Source: a virus. From it: 21,950 nt of DNA. The notes below the pieces were generated by a model that had not been told where the DNA came from, did not search any database, and saw nothing but the letters and a program-made list of their open reading frames with translations. The stretch covers positions 1,600-23,549 of IMG/VR virus record IMGVR_UViG_3300030328_001042. One strand, 5' to 3'. Both the position numbers and the translations under genes were made by a program. Below, in pieces: positions 3,565 to 21,661 of this stretch (the first letter of the stretch is position 1; each line of letters opens with the position of its first letter).

Positions 3565-6500
3565 TTAGCACCCGCAGAAGTGTTTTAGTAGACCAGCGTA
3601 ACTAGGAACAGCAGCAGGAAGGTTGGTAATATTTGAACCATCACCGTAAAGAGTGTCAGCGTACATATTTCTTACTCGGACGCCATTAGCTCCTATGTCA
3701 TAAGTACTATCTGTAGCTGGTTCAATATGACCACTACTGGTAATCTGCCATCTATTACTATTGTTGTGTCTGAAAATTAAACCGTTACTACCACCACCTA
3801 TATAAAGATAATTTGAGTGCTGTTGAATCTTTCCGTAAGCGTCACCTGTCCAAGAACCATTAGCGAATCTAATATCACTATTAGCAGCAATACTTACAGC
3901 ACCAGCACCACCGCTAAAGGTAATATCCCCAGTAGTCGTATCATCAGCATCAGATCTTAAGAAGCTTGCACCTTGAACACCATCCAACGTGTCGGCATCT
4001 AGCCCAGAACCAGCACCATCAACAGTTTTGATTAATGTAAGTATTTCACTAGCTGATTGATCTGCTGTCGCTCCGTCTTCTACATTTAAAAGAGTCCGAG
4101 CATCACCAGCCGCTAAAGTTTCAACATCCCCTGTTCCTGATGTAGTTCGTCCTAGGAATCGTGCTGAAGGAATCTCTTGCATTTTTGCAAAAGTAACAGC
4201 ATCATCTTCTATTCGTGCTGAAGCCAAAGTTCCTGAACTTATATTGTCTGCGTTTAATGCAGTTAAGTTTGCACCACTAGCAACAGGTAATGTTGATGGG
4301 AAACGAGCATCAGGAACAGTACCCGAAGTTAAATTACTTGCACTTAAATTAGTTAAGTCAATTGTTTGCCAACTGTTATCACCTCTTAAGAAGTTAGAGC
4401 TAGAAGCTGTACCACTTCCAAGTCTCGCTGTTGCTACCGTTCCAGAAGCTAAGTTAGTTGCGTTTAAAGCAGTTAAAGTTGAACCATCTCCAATAAATGT
4501 CTTACCACTAGCAACCTGAATATGCTCTGAAGATGTCCAAGCATCTGTTGAATTGACCCAGTTAAATGTCTTATCGCTGCTGCCCTTAAGGGTTAGTCCC
4601 CCTCCATCTGCGGTGGTATCACTAGGACTTGATACTTTACCAAGTTCTATATTTTTATCAGCCACCTCAACGGTTGTACTTGAAACTGTTGTAGTTGTGC
4701 CTTGGACTGTGAGATCTCCACTTACAGTTAATGCTCCTGTAACTGCCACTCCAGTTGAACTCGTGGCAAGTCTGGTTGTTCCTGCATGTTGTATCCTTAC
4801 AGGATTATCACTCTGAGTCGCAAGAACTAAAGGAGAAAGATTAGAGTCTAAAAAATTGATATTTGTAGAATTATTATGCCCAACAGTTAAATCAGCACCT
4901 ACCCCAAATTTTGCATATTCTTGATCGCCTAAAGTTAAGTGTCCATTTACATCTAATGCTCCTGAGACTGTAGCACCCGCAGTTGTAGTGGTTAAGCGAG
5001 CCGAATCATTAAAATAAAGAATGGCTCCACCATCCATTTCAAATCTGGCTGACTTTTTAACATTCCCTCCATTTGTAGCTGAATGTCTTATTTCTACAGG
5101 CGATCCTTTTCCTTGAACAATACTGGTGGTTCCGTCATACCAGAGCTTCATCTGATCAGTTGAATCTCCAACGTATAGATTTCCATTTTCGACAACAGTC
5201 AAGCCAGTTAATGTTCCAAGAGAAGTGATATTTGCTTGAGCAGCAGTTTGGATCGTTCCAGTTAAATTTCCTGTGACATTTCCAACAAAGGAAGTAGCAG
5301 TTAAAGCACCAGTTCCAGAATTGAAGGTTAATGAACTTGATCCTGCAAATGATCCAGAATTATTAAATTGAACTTGTGTATTTGATCCAGCAGCAGAAGT
5401 TACTACAGACTGCCAAGAACAAGTTCCGTCACCATCCTCTCTTAGGAATTTAGTAGCACCTGATTCGCCTGTTGAAAGTATTGCTGTTCCTTCTGGAGTA
5501 GCAGAGATTGTTTGCCAAGTATTATCTCCTCTTAGGAACTTGCTGCTTACAGAACTTCCTGATCCAAGCCTTGCAACATTGACGGTTCCGGAACTTAAGT
5601 TTGAAGCATTTAAAGCTGTTAATGAAGTTCCAGCTCCACTAAATCCTGTCGAAGTTAACAACCCAGTTGAAGGGTTATAAGTTAAACCTGTATCAGTTTC
5701 AATTGCTTGAGTGCCAGTAGCACCATCAACAAATGTTGGATATACAGTTTCATCAGTAGAATTATTTGCTACAGCAATAATATTAGTTGCTTCAGTTGCA
5801 GAAGCAGCATTACCAGTACAAGCTCCAGATGAACCTGATACATTACCTTGAAGAAGATTGCACGATAGAACATTAGTACTTGGGTTATAAGTAAGTCCTG
5901 TATCTGTCTCGGCTCCTTGTGATCCTGTCGCTCCATCAGCAAATAACAGATAAACAGTTTCATTTGTTGAGTTGTTAGCTGTAACAGTAAAGCTTGCTGC
6001 ATTACCTGTTGTGTCTTGATTTCCAGCAGCGTTAACGCCGGGAAGATTTATGCTTGCTGATCCATCGAAAGCAACTCCGCCAATATTTACACTTGAAGCA
6101 AATTTTGTTGCTGTTGCAGCATTACCAGAAGTGTTTTGCGTTCCAGTAGCATTGACGCCGGGAAGATTTATATTTGCACTTCCGTTAAAGCTGACTCCTC
6201 CAATAGTCCTTGCTGTTGCAAGTGTTGTAGCGGTGTCTGCATTGCCAGTTACATCCCCAGTAATATCTCCTACAAAGGTTCCTGTAATTGTTCCGCCATT
6301 TGTAATATTCTGACTGCCCATATTGAGAGCACCTGACATTGTGCCGCCAGCCAACGGAAGCTTAGTTGCGTCAGTAGCAGAGTCAGTAGCCCATTCAAGT
6401 GTGGTTGCAGTCGATCCAGCCTTGAGCACTTGACCTGTTGTAGGTGCTGTTGCTGGAAGGGTATAAGTTATATCGGCTGCTTGAGCTTGAGCTTTAAAAC

Positions 6501-9500
6501 CTGAGTAATGTGCTCCGTCTGAATCTGCCTCACTTAGCCTTAGTTCTTTTGCATTATCAATTATCAAATTGCCTGTCATTATGCCGCCAGCTTTTGCTAA
6601 GGCATTTCCAGCCGTGGTATTAGCGGTTGTAGCCAAATCAAAGGCAGATTTAACAGCGTTAGGTGTGGCTGCTGTTGTTGCACTTGTGCTTGAAGTTGAG
6701 TCTGTTAATTGAAGGACACCAACGGCACTTGTCGTTCCAGTCGTAACTTTTGAACCTGTAATTGCAGCAGAGTTTGATATATCTGCGTTGACAATTACTC
6801 CAGCAGAAATAGAAGTTAAACCAGCATTATTTATACTTATGTCTCCTGTAACTGCTACTGCTGCTACCTTGTTTGATGCGTTACCTACAAGGATTTGAGC
6901 AGAGGTTAAATTGGCTAATTTTGTAAACGCAATTGCAGCATCACTCTTAATGTCTACGTTCTGGATCGTGTCATTGGCAAGCATCGCTCCAGTAACAGTT
7001 CCAGTATCACCAGTTGTAATTACTGTTCCAGTTACATTCGGCAGGGTTATTACTTTGTCCGAAGTCGTTGGATCGGCAACTGTTAATTTTGTCTCAAACG
7101 CATCTGCTGTTGCTCCCTCGAAAACAAGACTTCCAGTGTTACCAATTAGCAACTCACCTGTAACAGTACCACCTGCTTTTGCTACTTTTTCTGTTTCTAA
7201 TTCGTCTATCGCTGCCTGAACATTAGTGGCTTGAAGTTGGCCAAAAGCTGTATAGCCAATTTGGTTAGCAGTTTGCGAAGCAACGGTTTCAGATAGATCT
7301 ATTTCTACCCAGTTTGATCCAGAACTATTTGTTACTCCAAGTAAGTAGTCGGGTGGCTTAAGGATACTGGTTATTCCTGCAATCCCGCTTGGTGTGCCTT
7401 GAACCGAAACAACAACATATCCGCCGTCCACCGCAGAGCTAGCAGCAGGAAGATTAGCACCAACTGTTAAACCAGCAGCAGCTCCAGCACTTGTTACATG
7501 ACTTACTTCGCTCTGCGAAGCATCGTATGTACCAAGACGGACCAAGGCTCCTTTCGTTAAAGTGGTGATCGGATTCCAAGCGTTTCCGTCCCACAAAAAC
7601 GCATCTTCAGCGATTGGGTCAAAGAGAAGTTGACCAGTAAAGGCTGCTGTTGGGTAACCTAATTGGGCTATAGATTGTATTATCGTGGTTGATGAATTGC
7701 TAAGTTTAGATGAATCAATAGTATCGGCTCCAATCCTTGCAGCGTCTAAGGTTCCTGTTGTTATTTTACTTGCAGGAAGCGAAGGAATTTGCCCTTCAGT
7801 TAAGGCTGCTCCTGCTGTTGCTACACCTTTATTGTTAACAGTAATTGATTGATATGTTCCCGCACTAATTCCACTTGTTGCCGTTATTAAATTACCAGAA
7901 CCATCAACAGTTAAACCTCCTCCAGATGTAATCTGTACGGCTCCTTTTGCACTCGTAGTTGCAACAGGTAAATCAGCAGCGACCAGTGCAGTAGTCGAAG
8001 TAATCTGGCCTTGAGCGTTATATGTGATACCACTAATTGATGCGCCTGTTATTGAATTTGTAATTGATAAAGCACCTGCTCCACTAACGCTTAATCCAGC
8101 ACCAACAGAAACGCCGCCGACAGCACTAGCAGTTGCTACAGGCAAGTCTCCTGCTACCAATGCGGTTGTAGCGGTTATCAAGCCCTGTGCGTTATATGTA
8201 ATCCCAGAACGAGTAGCAGCAGTAATAGTGTTATTGATTCCAAGATTCCCACTTGCTACGTTTAAAGATCTATCAATATTGCTTGTATTTAATTTTGCAG
8301 CAGTAATTGTTCCATCACCTATTTTTGTTCCGCTAATTCCACTCGCTACCTTGTCATTGGTGATAGCGGCGTTAGCCACAGCAGCAGTATCTACAGCGTT
8401 ATCTGCTAGTTCAGCAGCTCCTACAGCATTGGCGGCTATCTTTGAACTTGTAACTGTATTGTCACCAATAGATGTTGCTGAAATAGTTCCATCAAGTTTT
8501 GCTGCGTTTATAGCTCCGTCTGCAATCTTGTCCCTCGTGATGGCTCCATTTGCAACAGCCGCAGTGTCCACAGCGTTGTCAGCCAGTTCACTTGCTCCTA
8601 CGGAATTTGCAGCTAGATTTCCAGCCGTAATTGTATTTGCAGCTATCTTTGCAGAAGTAATGGCAGCGTCAGCAACAGCATCAGTATCTACGGCATCATC
8701 AGCCAACTCTGAAGCAGTTACGGCGTTTGCTGCTATTTGTGCCGCAGTTATAGAATTTCCAGCGATCTTTGCTCCTGCTATATCGCCGTCAGATATATTT
8801 AACTTGGCATAAGTAACAGTTGCATTAGATAATTTATCTCCAGTAATACTTCCCGCTAATTGTGCATTAGTGATCGTTCCAGATAAAGAAGAAGCTGGAT
8901 AATTTGTAGCGTCAGTTAAGTTAAATGCAGGGGTCGCATCAGTCGCCCCAAGGGATATTGAAACTCCTCCAAGGCTTATAGATTCGTTTGCTAACTTAGC
9001 ATTAGTGACAGCATCATCAGCTATTGCAGCAGTGTCTACAGCATCATTAGCTAGTTCCGAAGCCCCTACAGCGTTCGCTGCTATTTGTGCTGCGGTTATT
9101 GAATCTCCTGTTATTTTCGCTCCGCCTATAGATCCATCGGCTAGGTTTAGTTTCCCTGCTCCAATCGTTGAATTAGCTAATTTATCGCCAGTAATACTTC
9201 CTGCTAACTGAGCATTGCTAACAGTTCCAGACAAAGAGGCTGCTGGATAGTTTGTTGCATCAGAAAGGTTAAATGCTGGAGTAGCATCAGTCGCTCCCAG
9301 TGAAATACTGACCCCGCCAAGACTTACAGATGAGTTCGCTAATTTCGCATTAGTAACAGCAGAGTCAGCAATAGCGTCTGTGTCTACGGCATCATCAGCA
9401 AGTTCAGAACTCCCTACAGCATTGGCTCCTATCTGTGCATTTGTTATAGAATTTCCTGTAATCTTTGCGCCGGGAATATCACCGTCACTAAGATTTAATT

Positions 9501-9954
9501 TGGCATAAGTTACATTATTATCTGCTATTTTTACGGTTGTTACGGAGTTACTTGCAAGCTTATCTGCCGTTACATTTAAGTCAGTTATTTTTGAAGTTAT
9601 TACAGAATTAGTAGCTAAAGCTCCTGAATCTACGGCGTTATTTGCCAGTTCACTTGCTCCAATAGCATTTGCAGCTACAGCATCCGCAGTAACGGAATCA
9701 GTTGCTAACTTGGCCGAGTTAATAGCATCATCTTGAATAGTTGCAGTTGCTACTGAGTTAGCAGCAAAAGGTGTTGCAACTTTCGCAGCAGGTATATCTC
9801 CAGAATCTATAAGAGCCACACCAGCAGCAATTAAATCCTTTACAGTTACTTTTTTTGTCTCGGTTGCACTCAGATCAGCAAGTGCAAGTACATCGGTCGA
9901 TTGGATCGAGCCTTCCGCTAAGGCGGGTAAGCCCGTAATTTTTAAATCTGCCAT
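3565..9954 (-). CDS. Giant modular tail fibre (2129 aa)
   Basis: This is the largest gene, 29% of the window. It starts at ATG 9954 after a good ribosome site (AGGGG, 3 nt spacer). Residues 1-60 (MADLKITGLPALAEGSIQST...) match the N-terminal module I recall from cyanophage fibres, probably the tail-docking part. Residues 60-600 are short repeats of the type ASELADNAVDTAAVANGAIT, including two long 116-aa units. Later modules include paired IGGVxFxGSxxINLPGVN blocks (about 1236-1315), paired NNSTxETVY blocks (about 1325-1435), a VEVADKNIELGKVSSPSDTT module (about 1760) and, near the C-terminus, LDADTLDGVQGASFLRSDAD and GDGSNITNLPA. It ends in HFCGC. Low-complexity G/A/T/N-rich repeats fit an elongated trimeric beta fibre that contacts the cell surface. 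No chaperone-type or peptidase ending is visible. Confidence 0.9.
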   Translation of the reverse strand: MADLKITGLPALAEGSIQSTDVLALADLSATETKKVTVKDLIAAGVALIDSGDIPAAKVATPFAANSVATATIQDDAINSAKLATDSVTADAVAANAIGASELANNAVDSGALATNSVITSKITDLNVTADKLASNSVTTVKIADNNVTYAKLNLSDGDIPGAKITGNSITNAQIGANAVGSSELADDAVDTDAIADSAVTNAKLANSSVSLGGVSISLGATDATPAFNLSDATNYPAASLSGTVSNAQLAGSITGDKLANSTIGAGKLNLADGSIGGAKITGDSITAAQIAANAVGASELANDAVDTAAIADDAVTNAKLANESISLGGVSISLGATDATPAFNLTDATNYPASSLSGTITNAQLAGSITGDKLSNATVTYAKLNISDGDIAGAKIAGNSITAAQIAANAVTASELADDAVDTDAVADAAITSAKIAANTITAGNLAANSVGASELADNAVDTAAVANGAITRDKIADGAINAAKLDGTISATSIGDNTVTSSKIAANAVGAAELADNAVDTAAVANAAITNDKVASGISGTKIGDGTITAAKLNTSNIDRSLNVASGNLGINNTITAATRSGITYNAQGLITATTALVAGDLPVATASAVGGVSVGAGLSVSGAGALSITNSITGASISGITYNAQGQITSTTALVAADLPVATTSAKGAVQITSGGGLTVDGSGNLITATSGISAGTYQSITVNNKGVATAGAALTEGQIPSLPASKITTGTLDAARIGADTIDSSKLSNSSTTIIQSIAQLGYPTAAFTGQLLFDPIAEDAFLWDGNAWNPITTLTKGALVRLGTYDASQSEVSHVTSAGAAAGLTVGANLPAASSAVDGGYVVVSVQGTPSGIAGITSILKPPDYLLGVTNSSGSNWVEIDLSETVASQTANQIGYTAFGQLQATNVQAAIDELETEKVAKAGGTVTGELLIGNTGSLVFEGATADAFETKLTVADPTTSDKVITLPNVTGTVITTGDTGTVTGAMLANDTIQNVDIKSDAAIAFTKLANLTSAQILVGNASNKVAAVAVTGDISINNAGLTSISAGVIVNADISNSAAITGSKVTTGTTSAVGVLQLTDSTSSTSATTAATPNAVKSAFDLATTANTTAGNALAKAGGIMTGNLIIDNAKELRLSEADSDGAHYSGFKAQAQAADITYTLPATAPTTGQVLKAGSTATTLEWATDSATDATKLPLAGGTMSGALNMGSQNITNGGTITGTFVGDITGDVTGNADTATTLATARTIGGVSFNGSANINLPGVNATGTQNTSGNAATATKFASSVNIGGVAFDGSASINLPGVNAAGNQDTTGNAASFTVTANNSTNETVYLLFADGATGSQGAETDTGLTYNPSTNVLSCNLLQGNVSGSSGACTGNAASATEATNIIAVANNSTDETVYPTFVDGATGTQAIETDTGLTYNPSTGLLTSTGFSGAGTSLTALNASNLSSGTVNVARLGSGSSVSSKFLRGDNTWQTISATPEGTAILSTGESGATKFLREDGDGTCSWQSVVTSAAGSNTQVQFNNSGSFAGSSSLTFNSGTGALTATSFVGNVTGNLTGTIQTAAQANITSLGTLTGLTVVENGNLYVGDSTDQMKLWYDGTTSIVQGKGSPVEIRHSATNGGNVKKSARFEMDGGAILYFNDSARLTTTTAGATVSGALDVNGHLTLGDQEYAKFGVGADLTVGHNNSTNINFLDSNLSPLVLATQSDNPVRIQHAGTTRLATSSTGVAVTGALTVSGDLTVQGTTTTVSSTTVEVADKNIELGKVSSPSDTTADGGGLTLKGSSDKTFNWVNSTDAWTSSEHIQVASGKTFIGDGSTLTALNATNLASGTVATARLGSGTASSSNFLRGDNSWQTIDLTNLSASNLTSGTVPDARFPSTLPVASGANLTALNADNISSGTLASARIEDDAVTFAKMQEIPSARFLGRTTSGTGDVETLAAGDARTLLNVEDGATADQSASEILTLIKTVDGAGSGLDADTLDGVQGASFLRSDADDTTTGDITFSGGAGAVSIAANSDIRFANGSWTGDAYGKIQQHSNYLYIGGGSNGLIFRHNNSNRWQITSSGHIEPATDSTYDIGANGVRVRNMYADTLYGDGSNITNLPAAVPSYAGLLKHFCGC
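5652..5980. repeat. Two copies of an NNSTxETVY fibre module (210-nt period)
   Basis: The fibre protein carries NNSTNETVYLLFADGATGSQ and then, 70 residues later, NNSTDETVYPTFVDGATGTQ. Each is followed by the same ETDTGLTYNPST block. The DNA copies lie at roughly 5862-5980 and 5652-5769 and differ at many third positions, so this is an old internal duplication. Confidence 0.75.
6007..6246. repeat. Tandem 120-nt repeat in the fibre gene (IGGV / INLPGVN)
   Basis: Two adjacent 40-residue units, 6246-6127 and 6126-6007, each read GNAxTATxxAxxxxIGGVxF, xGSAxINLPGVNxxGxQ. Both contain the nearly identical DNA stretch gccgggaagatttat on the plus strand. The unit is a module familiar from marine phage fibres. 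Confidence 0.8.
8650..9510. repeat. 348-nt tandem repeat in the fibre gene, two full copies plus one half copy
   Basis: Two full 116-residue units run from 9345 to 8998 and from 8997 to 8650. Each begins KLANxSxSLGGVSISLGATD, continues with ATPAFNL, TNYPAxSLSG and AQLAGSITGDKL, and ends in xASELAxDAVDTxAxADxA. A third, half unit precedes them at 9510-9346 (the DGDIPGAKITGNSITNAQIG part). The first halves are most alike, including the VSISLGATDATPAFNL core; the second halves have drifted. Below 8650 the pattern decays into shorter ASELADNAVDTAAVANxAIT repeats. Confidence 0.85.
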
Positions 9955-16254: not shown

Positions 16255-16715
16255 CTGTTTTGTAGTGATCCAGTTACAGGTAACGATCCAACAATATCTC
16301 TAGTTAAAACTCGATCAGGAGCATTAGCCCCTACGGCATCAATAGCAGAAGATAAAATAACCTCTATCGTTTCTGGATCGTATGACATGGATGAGGCAAG
16401 CCACTGTTCTTCTGTTAACTCTGTCTGCCTTTCAAAACTGTCGGTCATTAGCCAAGTTTCTACTTTTACATGATATTTATTAAGAACAATTTGTTGTGCA
16501 TAATTCATACTTAACTCACTGTTAGCAAGAATCAAAGAAGACATCATATTGTCGCCAGATCTATTTCTGGCAGCACCTTGATAAATAAAGGAGAGATATT
16601 TAAACCCAGAAATATCTGGTGAAATTCTTCCGTTCTGGAATTTATCGGGGATGCCTGAAACAGATCCGTTTGGATTTGTAATAGTTATAAAATTAGTTAA
16701 CGCAATTGAACTCAT
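16251..16715 (-). CDS. L-like minor tail protein (154 aa)
   Basis: It sits between the tape measure and the NlpC/P60-like gene, where lambda L sits. The C-terminal half (KVETWLMTDSFERQTELTEEQ..., SYDPETIEVILSSAIDAVGANAPDRVLT) follows the 'E..L..E....ASL.YD...I...LS..iDA.G...P.R.L' pattern of L-type and DUF1833-like tail proteins. Lambda L goes on to a cysteine-rich C-terminal domain that binds an iron-sulphur cluster. This protein ends soon after the common part and contains no cysteine, so only the tail-docking portion is present. It overlaps both neighbours by 4 nt (ATGA at each end), indicating coupled translation. Confidence 0.65.
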   Translation of the reverse strand: MSSIALTNFITITNPNGSVSGIPDKFQNGRISPDISGFKYLSFIYQGAARNRSGDNMMSSLILANSELSMNYAQQIVLNKYHVKVETWLMTDSFERQTELTEEQWLASSMSYDPETIEVILSSAIDAVGANAPDRVLTRDIVGSLPVTGSLQNR

Positions 16716-19700
16716 AATCCTATATTTTGCCTCCTACTTCTTGAGTTTTGAAGACTAGATAATGTTCTAGCTTCTCCAGCTTTTGCACCTCTAGCTGCTG
16801 CACTATTAATAATTTGACCTATTGCAGATTTAGGAACAAATTCTTCACTGTTGAAATTAAGTATTGGCCCAGAATAATTAACAGTAGTAGATCCTCCTGC
16901 ACCTCCACTTGCGTAAGACGAACCAGTGCCGGGGATAACCGCTTCACCTCTAGCACCTGCTGAGTACCTTTGCATACTTGAAGCCATCTTAGAGGCTGGA
17001 ATTATATATTCATCCTCTCCAGCTTCTCCCACAAGACCAAGAGTGGGTCTCGTAGCTATACCTCCAGAAGAAAAAGCTTTTATTCCGTTACGAGCATACC
17101 CACCTTCTGCAAAAGGAAGAACATCTAAAAGGGCACTCTTTATAGCCATGCTTGCAATCTGTTTTGCAATACCCGCTAATGATTCTCCTAATGATTTAGT
17201 ACCCTCAATTAATCCCATAATTGCATCAGTCAACCCAGACGCAACTGTGTCTTTTATGCTCTCCCATAGCTTCTCTAGTCTCTTAGCATTTTCAGCTTCT
17301 TTTGTTAATTCACCATTCTTTTTCACCAAAGCTGTTACTTGATCTTTGTACTTAATTCCTATCTTGTCTAATATTTTTTCAATTGTTTGTTGTTGCTTAA
17401 TCTCATCTTCGTTACCGTCTATCTTGCCTTGTAATAAATCATTTTGTTTTTGTAAGTCATCTAATACATTTTCTGCTTCTTCTTTCTTTTCTTTTCTATA
17501 CGCATCTATTTTTGTTTCTAAATTAAAATTAGCTTTAGCTATATCTAGTTTAGCTGCCTGGACCTTAAGCTCTTTTTCTGCATCATCTTTACCAGCAGTA
17601 TCTTCCATTAATTTACTTGTTATATTTGCTATCTCTTTTTCTGCTTCTAATCTAAATTCAAGCTCTTTGTTTTCGTCTGTTTTTGCCTGTGCAATCTTTT
17701 TATCTATACCAAGGAGAGCAGCTTTAAGTTCGTTTTGTGATTCTAATTTTCCTAATAATTGATCTTCCTGTTGATTTATCCTGGTTGTAGCGTCTAGTTG
17801 TTCTTTAAAAATAAGATCTTTACCTGCTGCTCTTTCTTCGTTAAAAGCATCTTCGTCAAAGTTTTCGTTATTTGCAAAACCTTCTCTTCTTAACCTATTA
17901 GTTTCTCTATCAAACTTTTCTAGTTTAATTTGAGAGTCACCTTTAACCCGTGCTCTTTGATTTTCAAATGAACCACCTAAAGGCATAGCAGATCTTATTT
18001 CTAACTCTCTCCTTAACATCACTGCGTTATCTCTCATTTTATTTCCTAGTTCAGTTGCTTTAGCTATTGACTCTTGTAATGCAGGATTTACACCATCTAC
18101 TAAACCAGCAATAAAGTCATTAACACCAGAAGGAAGTTTGTTCATCACCCACATAATTCCATCTCTTATAAGACCGAATAATTTATTCCATCCAGCAAAC
18201 GCCATTGCCGTAAGTTTTAATATGGCACTTAAGGCGACAAGAACTGGCGAACTAATAATCCCTAAAAACGCACCTACCGCACCAACAACATCGTTCCATG
18301 CAGCTTTAACAAGATTCACAGTGTTATTTACGTCTTGAAGAGATCCAGCAGAAGCTCCTGTTTGTTTTTGTACTTGTTGAGCTATTAAAGCTCTTGCTTT
18401 CTCTATATCTCCTGCCTTTCTAAGAAGATTTACTTGAACTTGTAATTCTGAACTCAGTCGAATACCTGAATCAACCAACTCATCCATACTTACGGTACGA
18501 AGAGCTTCCCCTAGTGCTGCTGCCTTTTGAACAGCAGTATCCATCATTGTTCCTATCGCACTACCAAGAATCTGAGCACCAAATCCTTCCATACCCATCT
18601 TGTTTCCAAGTAAAGCACCACCAACACCACCACCAACAGAACCAACTCCTCCTCCAAACAAGAGAGGGAAACCAGCTCCAAGCATTAAGTTTTCTCCTCC
18701 TCTTCCTCCCATTCCACCTTTTCTACGTCTTATTCTTCTTATGTTTTGAAGTCTTTCTCTAGCTGTTTTTCTATGTGTAGCAGACTCTCTATTTGTTATT
18801 TTCTCTTGCTCTTTTTTAGATTTTTTAATCTTTTCTTCTATTGCCCACGATTGAGTTAGAACTTTTCTTCGTTTTGTTTCTAGTTCGTAGTGTCTTCTAA
18901 TTGATTTGGTAACAGCGTCTTCTGCTCCTGGTCTGTTTGGCCCAAACATTCCTTTTGGTCTTCCAGAAGGAGTATTCATTACTTGATCTGCTTTTCTGCT
19001 GAAATCAGCAAATCCACTACCAGCCCTAGCTGCTTTGCTTGCCCTGACATTTTTGATAATATTTCCTTTCATTCCTAAAGTTTGGAATTTTTTCAATGCC
19101 TCACTACTTATATTTATCTCCATAGTCATCTCTCTGAAAAACCCTTTCGCATCAAACGCAGCTTTACCCATCTTGTCTAAGCCTTTTATTAACTTCGGAA
19201 CCCCTTGCACGGCAACATTTGTAAGTTTGTCGCCAAAAGCCATATAAGCTACACCCATAGATGCAGCTATAACTGGATGAGCAGCAGCAAGAGCAGCTAA
19301 TTGACTAAGTTTTCCACTAAGAAATCCTGTTTTTACAGCAGCAACTTCAGCTCCCTTGCTAAATGGATTTAACGCACCAAAAGCGACTGATTTTAAATTT
19401 TTAAGCCAACCGACAGTTGTAGCTATATCTTGCGAAGCTTTGTTTAATCCCATAGCAGCTCCCAATCCAGCTACCCCCATAGCTCTCTTTCCTGCTGGAG
19501 ATCCCATTACATCTCCCAATTTGCTAAACCCCTCCATACTCCTAGCTGCTTTATTCACACTTCTTGCTGTTTCTTCTGCACTACGAGTTATCCCACTAAA
19601 TGTCCTGGAAGCCTTTCCTCCCATACGATCTAACTTTTCATTTATCTGATCTAATCCTTTAACTAGCTTTTCGTTACTCGCATTTATTCCCTTTAAATTC

Positions 19701-19765
19701 TCTGACAACTTATTCAGTTGGTTCAGATTCTTGACAACAATATCAATTTTGGTTTCTAAGCTCAC
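16712..19765 (-). CDS. Tail tape measure protein (1017 aa)
   Basis: Sets the tail length; at the usual 1.5 angstrom per residue this predicts a tail of roughly 150 nm. Residues 1-45 (ETKIDIVVKNLNQLNKLSEN...) are coiled coil. A Gly-rich hydrophobic patch lies at about 358-390 and a long hydrophobic segment at about 491-525, candidates for membrane insertion during DNA entry. Long charged coiled coils fill 560-840. The C-terminal part resembles lambda-type tape measures: WESIKDTVASGLTDAIMGLI and EGTKSLGESLAGIAKQIASM at about 832-872, then LGLVGEAGEDEYIIPASKM near 905. The start codon is GTG at 19765, preceded by AAAAGAAG; no in-frame start exists upstream before a stop. It begins 26 nt after the frameshifted chaperone reading frame ends. 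Confidence 0.92.
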   Translation of the reverse strand: MSLETKIDIVVKNLNQLNKLSENLKGINASNEKLVKGLDQINEKLDRMGGKASRTFSGITRSAEETARSVNKAARSMEGFSKLGDVMGSPAGKRAMGVAGLGAAMGLNKASQDIATTVGWLKNLKSVAFGALNPFSKGAEVAAVKTGFLSGKLSQLAALAAAHPVIAASMGVAYMAFGDKLTNVAVQGVPKLIKGLDKMGKAAFDAKGFFREMTMEINISSEALKKFQTLGMKGNIIKNVRASKAARAGSGFADFSRKADQVMNTPSGRPKGMFGPNRPGAEDAVTKSIRRHYELETKRRKVLTQSWAIEEKIKKSKKEQEKITNRESATHRKTARERLQNIRRIRRRKGGMGGRGGENLMLGAGFPLLFGGGVGSVGGGVGGALLGNKMGMEGFGAQILGSAIGTMMDTAVQKAAALGEALRTVSMDELVDSGIRLSSELQVQVNLLRKAGDIEKARALIAQQVQKQTGASAGSLQDVNNTVNLVKAAWNDVVGAVGAFLGIISSPVLVALSAILKLTAMAFAGWNKLFGLIRDGIMWVMNKLPSGVNDFIAGLVDGVNPALQESIAKATELGNKMRDNAVMLRRELEIRSAMPLGGSFENQRARVKGDSQIKLEKFDRETNRLRREGFANNENFDEDAFNEERAAGKDLIFKEQLDATTRINQQEDQLLGKLESQNELKAALLGIDKKIAQAKTDENKELEFRLEAEKEIANITSKLMEDTAGKDDAEKELKVQAAKLDIAKANFNLETKIDAYRKEKKEEAENVLDDLQKQNDLLQGKIDGNEDEIKQQQTIEKILDKIGIKYKDQVTALVKKNGELTKEAENAKRLEKLWESIKDTVASGLTDAIMGLIEGTKSLGESLAGIAKQIASMAIKSALLDVLPFAEGGYARNGIKAFSSGGIATRPTLGLVGEAGEDEYIIPASKMASSMQRYSAGARGEAVIPGTGSSYASGGAGGSTTVNYSGPILNFNSEEFVPKSAIGQIINSAAARGAKAGEARTLSSLQNSRSRRQNIGL

Positions 19766-19791: not shown

Positions 19792-20336
19792 TTACCTACG
19801 TCTGCGGTTTTTTCGCATTTCTTCTTCCTGATCTTCGTTTAAAATTTGAAAATAAGCACTCCACCCAATAATTTCTTCTACCGTCATCTGCCTTATTTCC
19901 GCTAAAGATTTACCTAATTCTTTAGCTATACCAAACTGAAGCATCAATAAATTGTCTTTACGCAGCTCCTTGCTTAGTCCTTTGGGTCGATCTGATCCTC
20001 ATCGTCTGTAATTACAGCAAGCATTAACTTTTGCAAGTCAGCATCCTTAACTTCATTCTTTAAAACATCAATTTCTCCAAGATTAAACAGTCTTTGACCA
20101 GTATCATCCTGTGCTTTTGTCATTAAAAGTCTTAATGCAAACTCATTAGCATCATCAGATTTAGCTCCTTTTTGTGCTCTTTCTCTTTCTGACATTGTTA
20201 ATGGTGTTACCCACATCTCAAAAATAGATCCATCAGATAGTTCAACTTCTTTCTTTACTGCTTCCAAATTTGCAGCCTTTTTTAAACGGTCTACTGCTCT
20301 CAATCCTGATCGAGAAGATTTAGGACTAGTTGTCAT
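19792..20336 (-). CDS. Tail assembly chaperone G-T, product of -1 frameshift (about 181 aa)
   Basis: Residues 1-119 are shared with the short chaperone. At CCCAAAG (19986-19980) a -1 slip would move translation into a frame open for 62 more codons, stopping at TAA 19794-19792. The extension reads GLSKELRKDNLLMLQFGIAK..., EIRQMTVEEIIGWSAYFQIL and ends in a basic run (RKNRRRR). The Trp-containing 'EIIGWSAYF' stretch is typical of T-domains of tail chaperones. It has no good start codon with a ribosome site of its own, so frameshifting is the simplest explanation. In lambda, the G-T fusion bridges tape measure and tube protein; the place directly before the tape measure fits. The frameshift itself is inferred, not observed. 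Confidence 0.8.
19974..20336 (-). CDS. Tail assembly chaperone G (120 aa)
   Basis: A short acidic protein between the major tail protein and the tape measure, the canonical place for the G chaperone, which coats the tape measure before the tube polymerises. The sequence has a basic N-terminus (TTSPKSSRSGLRAVDRLKKA), a strand SDGSIFEMWVTPLTMSERER resembling the 'F.V..L...E' core of tail chaperones, a helical middle and an acidic tail DDEDQIDPKD. Its stop TAA lies just one codon after a slippery heptamer, so a minority of ribosomes would extend it to G-T. It is separated from the major tail protein gene by a strong terminator, so it may be made from read-through or from its own promoter; none stands out in the 94-nt gap. 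Confidence 0.8.
   Translation of the reverse strand: MTTSPKSSRSGLRAVDRLKKAANLEAVKKEVELSDGSIFEMWVTPLTMSERERAQKGAKSDDANEFALRLLMTKAQDDTGQRLFNLGEIDVLKNEVKDADLQKLMLAVITDDEDQIDPKD
19980..19986 (-). promoter_or_regulatory. Slippery heptamer CCCAAAG for -1 frameshifting
   Basis: Read in the chaperone frame the site is C CCA AAG, the canonical X XXY YYZ form and very close to lambda's G GGA AAG between genes G and T. The zero-frame stop follows after one codon, and the -1 frame is open for 62 codons. No strong downstream stem-loop is obvious by eye. Confidence 0.8.
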
Positions 20337-20430: not shown

Positions 20431-21201
20431 TTATGTAGAACTTAGATCGAAAGAAGGGAGACTTGCTGGACGGAAATTAACTGTCACTTCTTGAGCATCA
20501 TCAGGGTTAACACTGAAACTTGCAGAAGTTAGCGTTGCGTCAAAGCTGATTGAACGACTAAGAGTGTCGCTAACATTTCCACCACTAAATACACGATCTG
20601 TATAAAGTTTGAACGCTGCACCGACTTGCTGACGTTGAAGAACGTCTTCTACCAATCTGTTTGATAGAGCTGAATCTTCGTTTGTCATATATGTAGAAGC
20701 AGTACCAGAACCATCACCAAATCCAGCAATGTAAGTTCTAAATGGAACGTATTGACCAGGAGCTTGACCAATTGTTGTTACATCGATCTCAGCTCTTTCA
20801 ATTTCAAATGTCCACTCTCTTACTTGTCCAATAGAAGCAAAATCGTTGTAATAAACTTGAAATTCGTTAGGAGCTGCGGCTGTTCCAACGTCAGTAAGGT
20901 TTAAATCAGAACCACCATTTGTTGCTGATACTTTCAATGCACCAGTGGTTGCGTTGTAAGAACTAACATAATAAGTCGTAGAGGCACTTATAGGGGCAGG
21001 AAGCGTTCCTGTTCCTGTGTCACCAGTAGAACTATCTATAACTTTGAACTTAACTGGATCGCCTGTTTTTAGGTTTAGGTAAGTTTGAACAACCATTGTT
21101 TCTGTTCCAATGGTGACATCAGTAGTGCTAAAAGTACCTGTAGTACCAGCAGGTTTATAGTAGAGAGCACCTGATGTGCCAGATAAGACGGTTACGGCCA
21201 T
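20431..21201 (-). CDS. Major tail (tube) protein (256 aa)
   Basis: Polymerises around the tape measure to form the tail tube. Residues 7-16 (SGTSGALYYK) and 125-146 (GQVREWTFEIERAEIDVTTI) form the core tube pattern, continued by FRTYIAGFGDGSGTAS, VLQRQQVGAAFKLYTDR and a final strand pair (TSASFSVNPDDAQEVTVNF). Residues of about 26-105 are an inserted domain (LKTGDPVKF ... STTYYVSSYNATTGALKV). It is followed by an intrinsic terminator and preceded by the tail terminator gene, the usual lambda-like order U-V-G. No strong ribosome site precedes ATG 21201. Two genes near 10-11 kb carry clearly related sequences; this one is taken as the main tube protein because of its place before the chaperone and tape measure. 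Confidence 0.85.
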   Translation of the reverse strand: MAVTVLSGTSGALYYKPAGTTGTFSTTDVTIGTETMVVQTYLNLKTGDPVKFKVIDSSTGDTGTGTLPAPISASTTYYVSSYNATTGALKVSATNGGSDLNLTDVGTAAAPNEFQVYYNDFASIGQVREWTFEIERAEIDVTTIGQAPGQYVPFRTYIAGFGDGSGTASTYMTNEDSALSNRLVEDVLQRQQVGAAFKLYTDRVFSGGNVSDTLSRSISFDATLTSASFSVNPDDAQEVTVNFRPASLPSFDLSST

Positions 21202-21229: not shown

Positions 21230-21661
21230 TTAGCTCAAAACCGTGGCAACGTAAGAAGTTTCTATTCTTCCCATGAATAATGGAGCATCTTCAGTACTAG
21301 AAAAGCTTGGCCCTTCGATAGAACCAGTCTTTAAATACGCTCCTGTAGTCCCTTTTGTCTCATCATTTAGCGTTTCTAAAACATTAACAGCCGTTGTAAT
21401 TAATGTTTGATTTCTTGATGGTCCTTCTCCTTTTTTAGAAAAACAACGAATAACTATTGCTCCTCTAGCGTTATCAACGCTTGAACCTAGTGTTGGATCG
21501 TTTGTTAAGCCGAATGTAACATTTACTCTTACATATTCAGTCGTACTATTTGCTGGTGCAGCAGTGATGTTGTCAAAGAAAACAGGAACCGCAGGACTTA
21601 ACGCTCCAAAAGCAGTTAATAATGGGTTTTCTACTTTTGCTCTGATTTTTTGGTAATTCAT
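21230..21661 (-). CDS. Tail terminator / tail completion protein, gpU-like (143 aa)
   Basis: The size and opening (MNYQKIRAKVENPLLTAFGA, then VPVFFDNI and YVRVNVTFG) match the alpha-beta pattern of phage tail terminators: first helix, short strand with the PVxxDN turn, then an 'YVRVxVxFG' strand. It ends in a further strand pair (PLFMGRIETSYVATVLS). Such proteins cap the growing tube at the head-proximal end. The gene lies directly before the major tail protein with a 28-nt gap, as lambda U precedes V. Its ATG shares one base with the preceding stop (TAATG). The family call rests on pattern and position. Confidence 0.75.
   Translation of the reverse strand: MNYQKIRAKVENPLLTAFGALSPAVPVFFDNITAAPANSTTEYVRVNVTFGLTNDPTLGSSVDNARGAIVIRCFSKKGEGPSRNQTLITTAVNVLETLNDETKGTTGAYLKTGSIEGPSFSSTEDAPLFMGRIETSYVATVLS

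Follow-up and report, generated by a model that had tools for sequence, protein, structure and literature searches.

A conserved slippery heptamer points to a programmed −1 frameshift in the tail assembly chaperone gene of a virus related to marine cyanobacterial phages

Sequence analysis indicates that a relative of the marine cyanobacterial phages very probably produces a second, longer form of its tail assembly chaperone. The longer protein, a G-T fusion, is attributed with high confidence to programmed −1 ribosomal frameshifting as in lambda G/GT. The frameshift arrangement is real and conserved, and the proposed frameshift is ordinary in kind, the trick being well known in phages. The DNA analyzed, hereafter the window, was a stretch of 21,950 nucleotides (positions 1,600 to 23,549) of the 23.5-kb IMG/VR virus record IMGVR_UViG_3300030328_001042. 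The chaperone gene G lay on its minus strand.

G was an open reading frame (19974–20336, minus strand) running from ATG at 20336 to TAA at 19976–19974 and encoding 120 aa that ended in ...DQIDPKD. A profile search matched G to phrog_20784 with an E-value of 1.5e-30. All 15 G homologues tested matched phrog_344, 'tail assembly chaperone', and 5 homologues gave weak matches to Pfam TAC_13. The three-dimensional structure of G was predicted by AlphaFold with a pLDDT of 80.7. The top matches of the model among solved structures were the HK97 tail assembly chaperone (PDB 2OB9, Z 9.1 over 103 residues) and Bacillus subtilis YqbN (PDB 3KLU, Z 8.1); the next-best match had a Z of 4.6. Identity to these two proteins was just 10–13%, with Foldseek TM-scores of 0.45–0.49. 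Profile and predicted fold supported the identification of G as a tail assembly chaperone; an earlier reading of the DNA made from the sequence only had called it a chaperone.

The gene order around G was that of a lambda-like tail: tail terminator, major tail protein, G, T and tape measure, the last placed mainly by position and length. The tail terminator gene (21230–21661, minus strand) matched phrog_179 with an E-value of 2e-10. The upstream neighbour of G encoded the major tail protein (20431–21201, minus strand), with 64% identity to a KBS-S-2A protein and 33% identity to an S-2L protein annotated as major tail protein. The presumed tape measure of 1017 aa (16712–19765, minus strand) matched phrog_167 weakly (E 0.027), and a tblastn search with it against KBS-S-2A, S-2L and three other loci gave no match. 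Its start was a GTG at 19765, 26 nt past the end of T. By gene order and homology, G was thus a chaperone frame between the major tail protein and tape measure genes. When the tail region was searched against the phage collection at the DNA level, nothing matched, and a scan of bacterial and archaeal genomes with an alignment of G found no relative and hence gave no host or prophage context. Elsewhere in the window, the minus strand at 3565–9954 encoded a 2129-aa protein built from numerous alanine-rich near-repeats (ANAVGASELANNAVDT-like), which is presumably a tail fibre or a protein similar to one.

The 3′ end of G read GAC CCA AAG GAC TAA. The heptamer C CCA AAG (19980–19986, minus strand) was an in-register X XXY YYZ site, and the 0-frame stop TAA (19974–19976, minus strand) lay one codon past it. 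C_CCA_AAG is rated highly shift-prone in E. coli (NAR 2016 review, PMC5009743). A TGA (19999–20001, minus strand) closed the −1 frame upstream, so both frames were open together for only about 25 nt, to which a slip would be confined. C CCA AAG was the sole X XXY YYZ site within this stretch, and a comparable −1-frame stop lay 3–10 codons ahead of the 0-frame stop in most relatives. The T extension in the −1 frame (19792–19980, minus strand) had 62 codons (19980–19795) encoding GLSKELRKDNLL...RKNRRRR, with a basic C-terminus, and a stop at 19794–19792. Nine of 11 T homologues matched phrog_337, 'tail protein' (best 1.8e-7; T of this virus 0.0021), and a Pfam search with T gave no family above the cut-off. 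The sequence-only reading had placed the heptamer, the 62 codons, their stop and the 26-nt gap correctly to the base.

From these features we infer a slip and its efficiency as follows. Most ribosomes would stop at the TAA and yield G. In a minority, tRNA-Pro and tRNA-Lys on C CCA AAG would slip back one base to CCC AAA, perhaps aided by pairing of an upstream GAGGA with 16S rRNA and by a downstream structure. The slipped ribosomes would read the 62 further codons and produce a 181-aa G-T with the junction ...IDPK/GLSKEL.... By analogy with lambda, the tape measure would be coated by G, and recruitment of the major tail protein would fall to the T portion of the less abundant fusion.

The conservation of the heptamer and the −1 frame was investigated among relatives, a check that the sequence-only reading had proposed. 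An IMG/VR scan with G gave 80 loci. In 77 of them, CCCAAAA or CCCAAAG lay ten bases ahead of the stop in identical register, so the combination of heptamer and open −1 frame was not due to chance. Counted from the CCC of the heptamer, the −1 extension had 64 codons (65 in three loci), except in L018, where T was broken, and L078, where it was cut off by the contig end. The three remaining loci (L079–L081) carried C CCC AAG, with the −1 frame still open and homologous. Relatives thus bore out the proposal.

Wider searches from KBS-S-2A, L079, AG-345-A17 and S-2L gave 286 G loci, including the window and its own copy. T was in the −1 frame in 192, in the +1 frame in 91 and not found in 3. Dereplication at 5% divergence left 101 −1 loci, and 91 of these had a canonical heptamer (CCCAAAR, AAAAAAC, AAAAAAA or GGGAAAG). 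CCCAAAR alone was found in 73, overlapping CCCAAAA and AAAAAAC in 5, AAAAAAC in 11 (one with an extra AAATTTA farther upstream), AAAAAAA in 1, GGGAAAG in 1 and CCCCAAG in 10. Therefore, the heptamer varies and the frame relation is kept. More distant homologues had A AAA AAC or G GGA AAG, and T was in the −1 frame in the distant homologues KBS-S-2A, phi3LM21, CRP-811 and S-2L despite other heptamers or positions.

Two variants of the site were observed. In L096, L100, L104–L107 and L120, the overlapping in-register CCCAAAA and AAAAAAC lay in the string CCCAAAAAAC beside the stop, and either or both could be used. In L079–L081, L125–L132, L137, L148 and others, C CCC AAG AAY TAG replaced CCCAAAR and T stayed in the −1 frame. 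On C CCC AAG, full re-pairing would be possible for the P-site tRNA-Pro only; the occurrence of this non-canonical −1 site in 10 of the 101 dereplicated −1 loci was counted against the frameshift explanation.

Selection on the site and on T was then considered. Among dereplicated loci ending in D-P-K, the Asp codon was GAC in 85/85, compared with 51% GAC among the other Asp codons there, and the Pro codon was CCA in 75/85. At a divergence cut-off of 20%, which kept the most divergent subset, Asp was still GAC in 11/11 versus 33% elsewhere; P-values for this bias ignore relatedness among the loci, and its direction was clear. The heptamer begins with the third base of this Asp codon. Provided that the two tRNAs slip in concert, that base affects neither protein, and the fixation of GAC therefore points to slippage. 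In the 12 codons from the heptamer to the first Met, pN/pS was 0.20 in the −1 frame versus 0.77 and 3.4 in the other frames, and after the first Met it was 0.18 in the −1 frame. T was under protein-level purifying selection from the heptamer onward, in the −1 frame only. Conservation of the heptamer and frame, the fixed GAC and the constraint before the Met all favoured the programmed −1 frameshift that had been proposed.

T could instead be a separate small gene, started from TTG at 19947 or ATG at 19944 through an AAGGAG after the G stop, and no fusion would be made. This reading was given very little weight. The Met at codon 13 of T was kept in 29 of 31 close relatives, and AAGGAG is present upstream in this virus. 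However, AAGGAG lay 18–21 nt from the TTG and ATG, and no properly spaced Shine-Dalgarno sequence was found for them in the window. The motif was also not conserved, the relatives having GCGAAGAG and GTGCAGAG. The codons before the Met were constrained like those after it, L051, L072 and KBS-S-2A had T without that Met, and the fixed GAC CCA AAR would be left without a reason. An independent start of T, which the sequence-only reading had named as a point to check, was contradicted by the early constraint, the Met-less relatives and the spacing. Since the Met was so well conserved, extra internal initiation of T may occur in addition to the frameshift.

Transcriptional slippage, a genuine frame break or an assembly error would likewise put the two protein halves in different frames. 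Nothing computed here favoured these explanations, and together they have only a very slight chance of being right. The site in this virus has no homopolymer longer than three bases, and the arrangement recurs in 192 loci, among them isolate genomes that were sequenced independently. A fortuitous, untranslated −1 frame has next to no probability. Such frames do occur: among control ORFs with 100 aa or more from the compared loci, which recur across related loci and hence are not independent, 6 of the 147 evaluable had a −1 frame open for at least 50 codons beyond the stop. None of these had a heptamer too, and none of 216 control ORFs had an in-register heptamer of such type in the last four codons. 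Strong purifying selection on T in exactly the −1 frame and the homologous T of other phages argued against chance, and the programmed −1 frameshift was retained as the explanation.

The analysis went beyond the sequence-only reading in three features: a probable upstream stimulator, a possible stem-loop and sister clades with T in the +1 frame. The Shine-Dalgarno-like GAGGA (19996–20000, minus strand) ended 9 nt 5′ of the heptamer. This spacing of the tetranucleotide was found in 23 of 31 close relatives, and the Glu codon forming the element was GAG in 25/30 versus 24% elsewhere in G. The element is therefore a probable stimulator of the frameshift. A candidate stem-loop lay downstream (19930–19978, minus strand), with an outer stem of 19978–19972/19936–19930 and an inner stem of 19969–19965/19942–19938.

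The stability of the stem-loop was compared with synonymous-codon shuffles. With 48-nt segments, z was −2.88 in this virus, −1.65 as the mean of the close clade, −2.82 in the KBS clade and +0.52 in the +1 loci. With 57-nt segments, the close-clade mean was just −1.12, and the high-GC clade showed no excess stability downstream of the site. The inner stem GGAGC/GCUYC was common to the window and KBS clades, and synonymous sites there hardly varied; pair counting gave little covariation. Shuffles of the pairing partners reached much the same pairing (66/500) and covariation (55/500) as observed. Because of these shuffles and the high-GC result, the stem-loop was not counted as a proven element, and it is regarded as a possible stimulator.

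E. coli dnaX undergoes a −1 frameshift at A AAA AAG, with a Shine-Dalgarno-like element about 10 nt upstream and a downstream hairpin as proven stimulators. The same layout of upstream element and downstream stem-loop is proposed here for an unrelated gene. The upstream element was conserved in the close clade, and the stem-loop was backed by folding z, not by covariation.

In lambda, the G/GT frameshift at GGGAAAG is of the −1 type and is widely conserved in long-tailed phages (PMC5009743, citing Xu et al. 2004). The partner of lambda G is the tape measure and that of T the major tail protein, and the virion contains neither G nor T (PMC5009743). The virus studied here shared with lambda a T in −1 after G, a heptamer at the 3′ end of G and the position between major tail protein and tape measure; this likeness is one of layout and gene order. 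It differed from lambda in having CCCAAAG instead of GGGAAAG, a stop one codon past the heptamer, a T of only 62 codons and a possible Shine-Dalgarno-like stimulator.

In KBS-S-2A (HQ634187), which infects Synechococcus WH7803, G was 63% and T 56% identical, T was in −1 and the neighbours were the same. It differed in having A AAA AAC abutting TAA and a stronger stem-loop. G of S-2L (MW334946) was 40% identical, is annotated as putative tail assembly chaperone and had an in-register CCCAAAG. In S-2L (L083) and L285–L287, CCCAAAG lay 17 codons ahead of the 0-frame stop, unlike in this virus, and the homologous T in −1 overlapped the end of G. No T gene is annotated in KBS-S-2A or S-2L, consistent with the earlier statement that standard gene callers would miss it. 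In phi3LM21 (L085, 2534–2644), the deposited annotation gives T as p41, a hypothetical gene of its own. It lies in −1 behind an in-register AAAAAAC that ends the chaperone gene, and it is probably a missed fusion.

A homologous T was in the +1 frame of G in AG-345-A17 and its kin (L084, L205–L284), in several close relatives of KBS-S-2A (L108, L109, L111–L115, L117 and L118) and in L121–L122. In these loci the overlap was limited upstream, within a few bases, by a stop in the +1 frame, and it held AAA AGC, occasionally AAA AGG, AGA or AGT. The Ser codon at the site was AGC in 56/57 loci versus 5/215 other Ser codons in G, and the +1 frame near the junction was without ATG, GTG or TTG in 50/60 loci. 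The simplest reading is that tRNA-Lys makes a +1 slip from AAA to AAA while a rare AGC codon waits in the A site. Where AGC was present, the next +1 codon was always GCN (Ala), so the bias towards AGC could instead reflect selection for that residue in the fusion. A −2 slip instead of +1 may also operate at these loci. On a careful tree, the +1 state required 3 changes, and an AU test of one +1 clade gave a p of 0.226; a single +1 origin was neither established nor rejected by these results.

Shifts of −1, −2 and +1 are already known for the chaperone gene pair in different phages (PMC5009743). The results suggested that one alignable G/T family probably uses −1 slippage at CCCAAAR, AAAAAAC or GGGAAAG with local stimulators in the window and KBS-S-2A lineages, and +1 slippage at AAA_AGC in their sisters, where no structure was detected downstream. 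The direction would have switched, perhaps repeatedly, with the G-T product kept. The direction switch among alignable homologues and the recurrent AAA_AGC +1 site would be new here.

A T extension with no start of its own is easily missed in annotation. The analysis supplies T, the half of the tail chaperone that had been lacking, for a large group of cyanophage relatives, most of them uncultured. In this family, which can be aligned, several heptamers occur together with one non-canonical −1 site and a +1 branch, and such a series allows one to ask what a chaperone frameshift must conserve. The quantity proposed to be conserved is the product ratio, not the direction of the slip.
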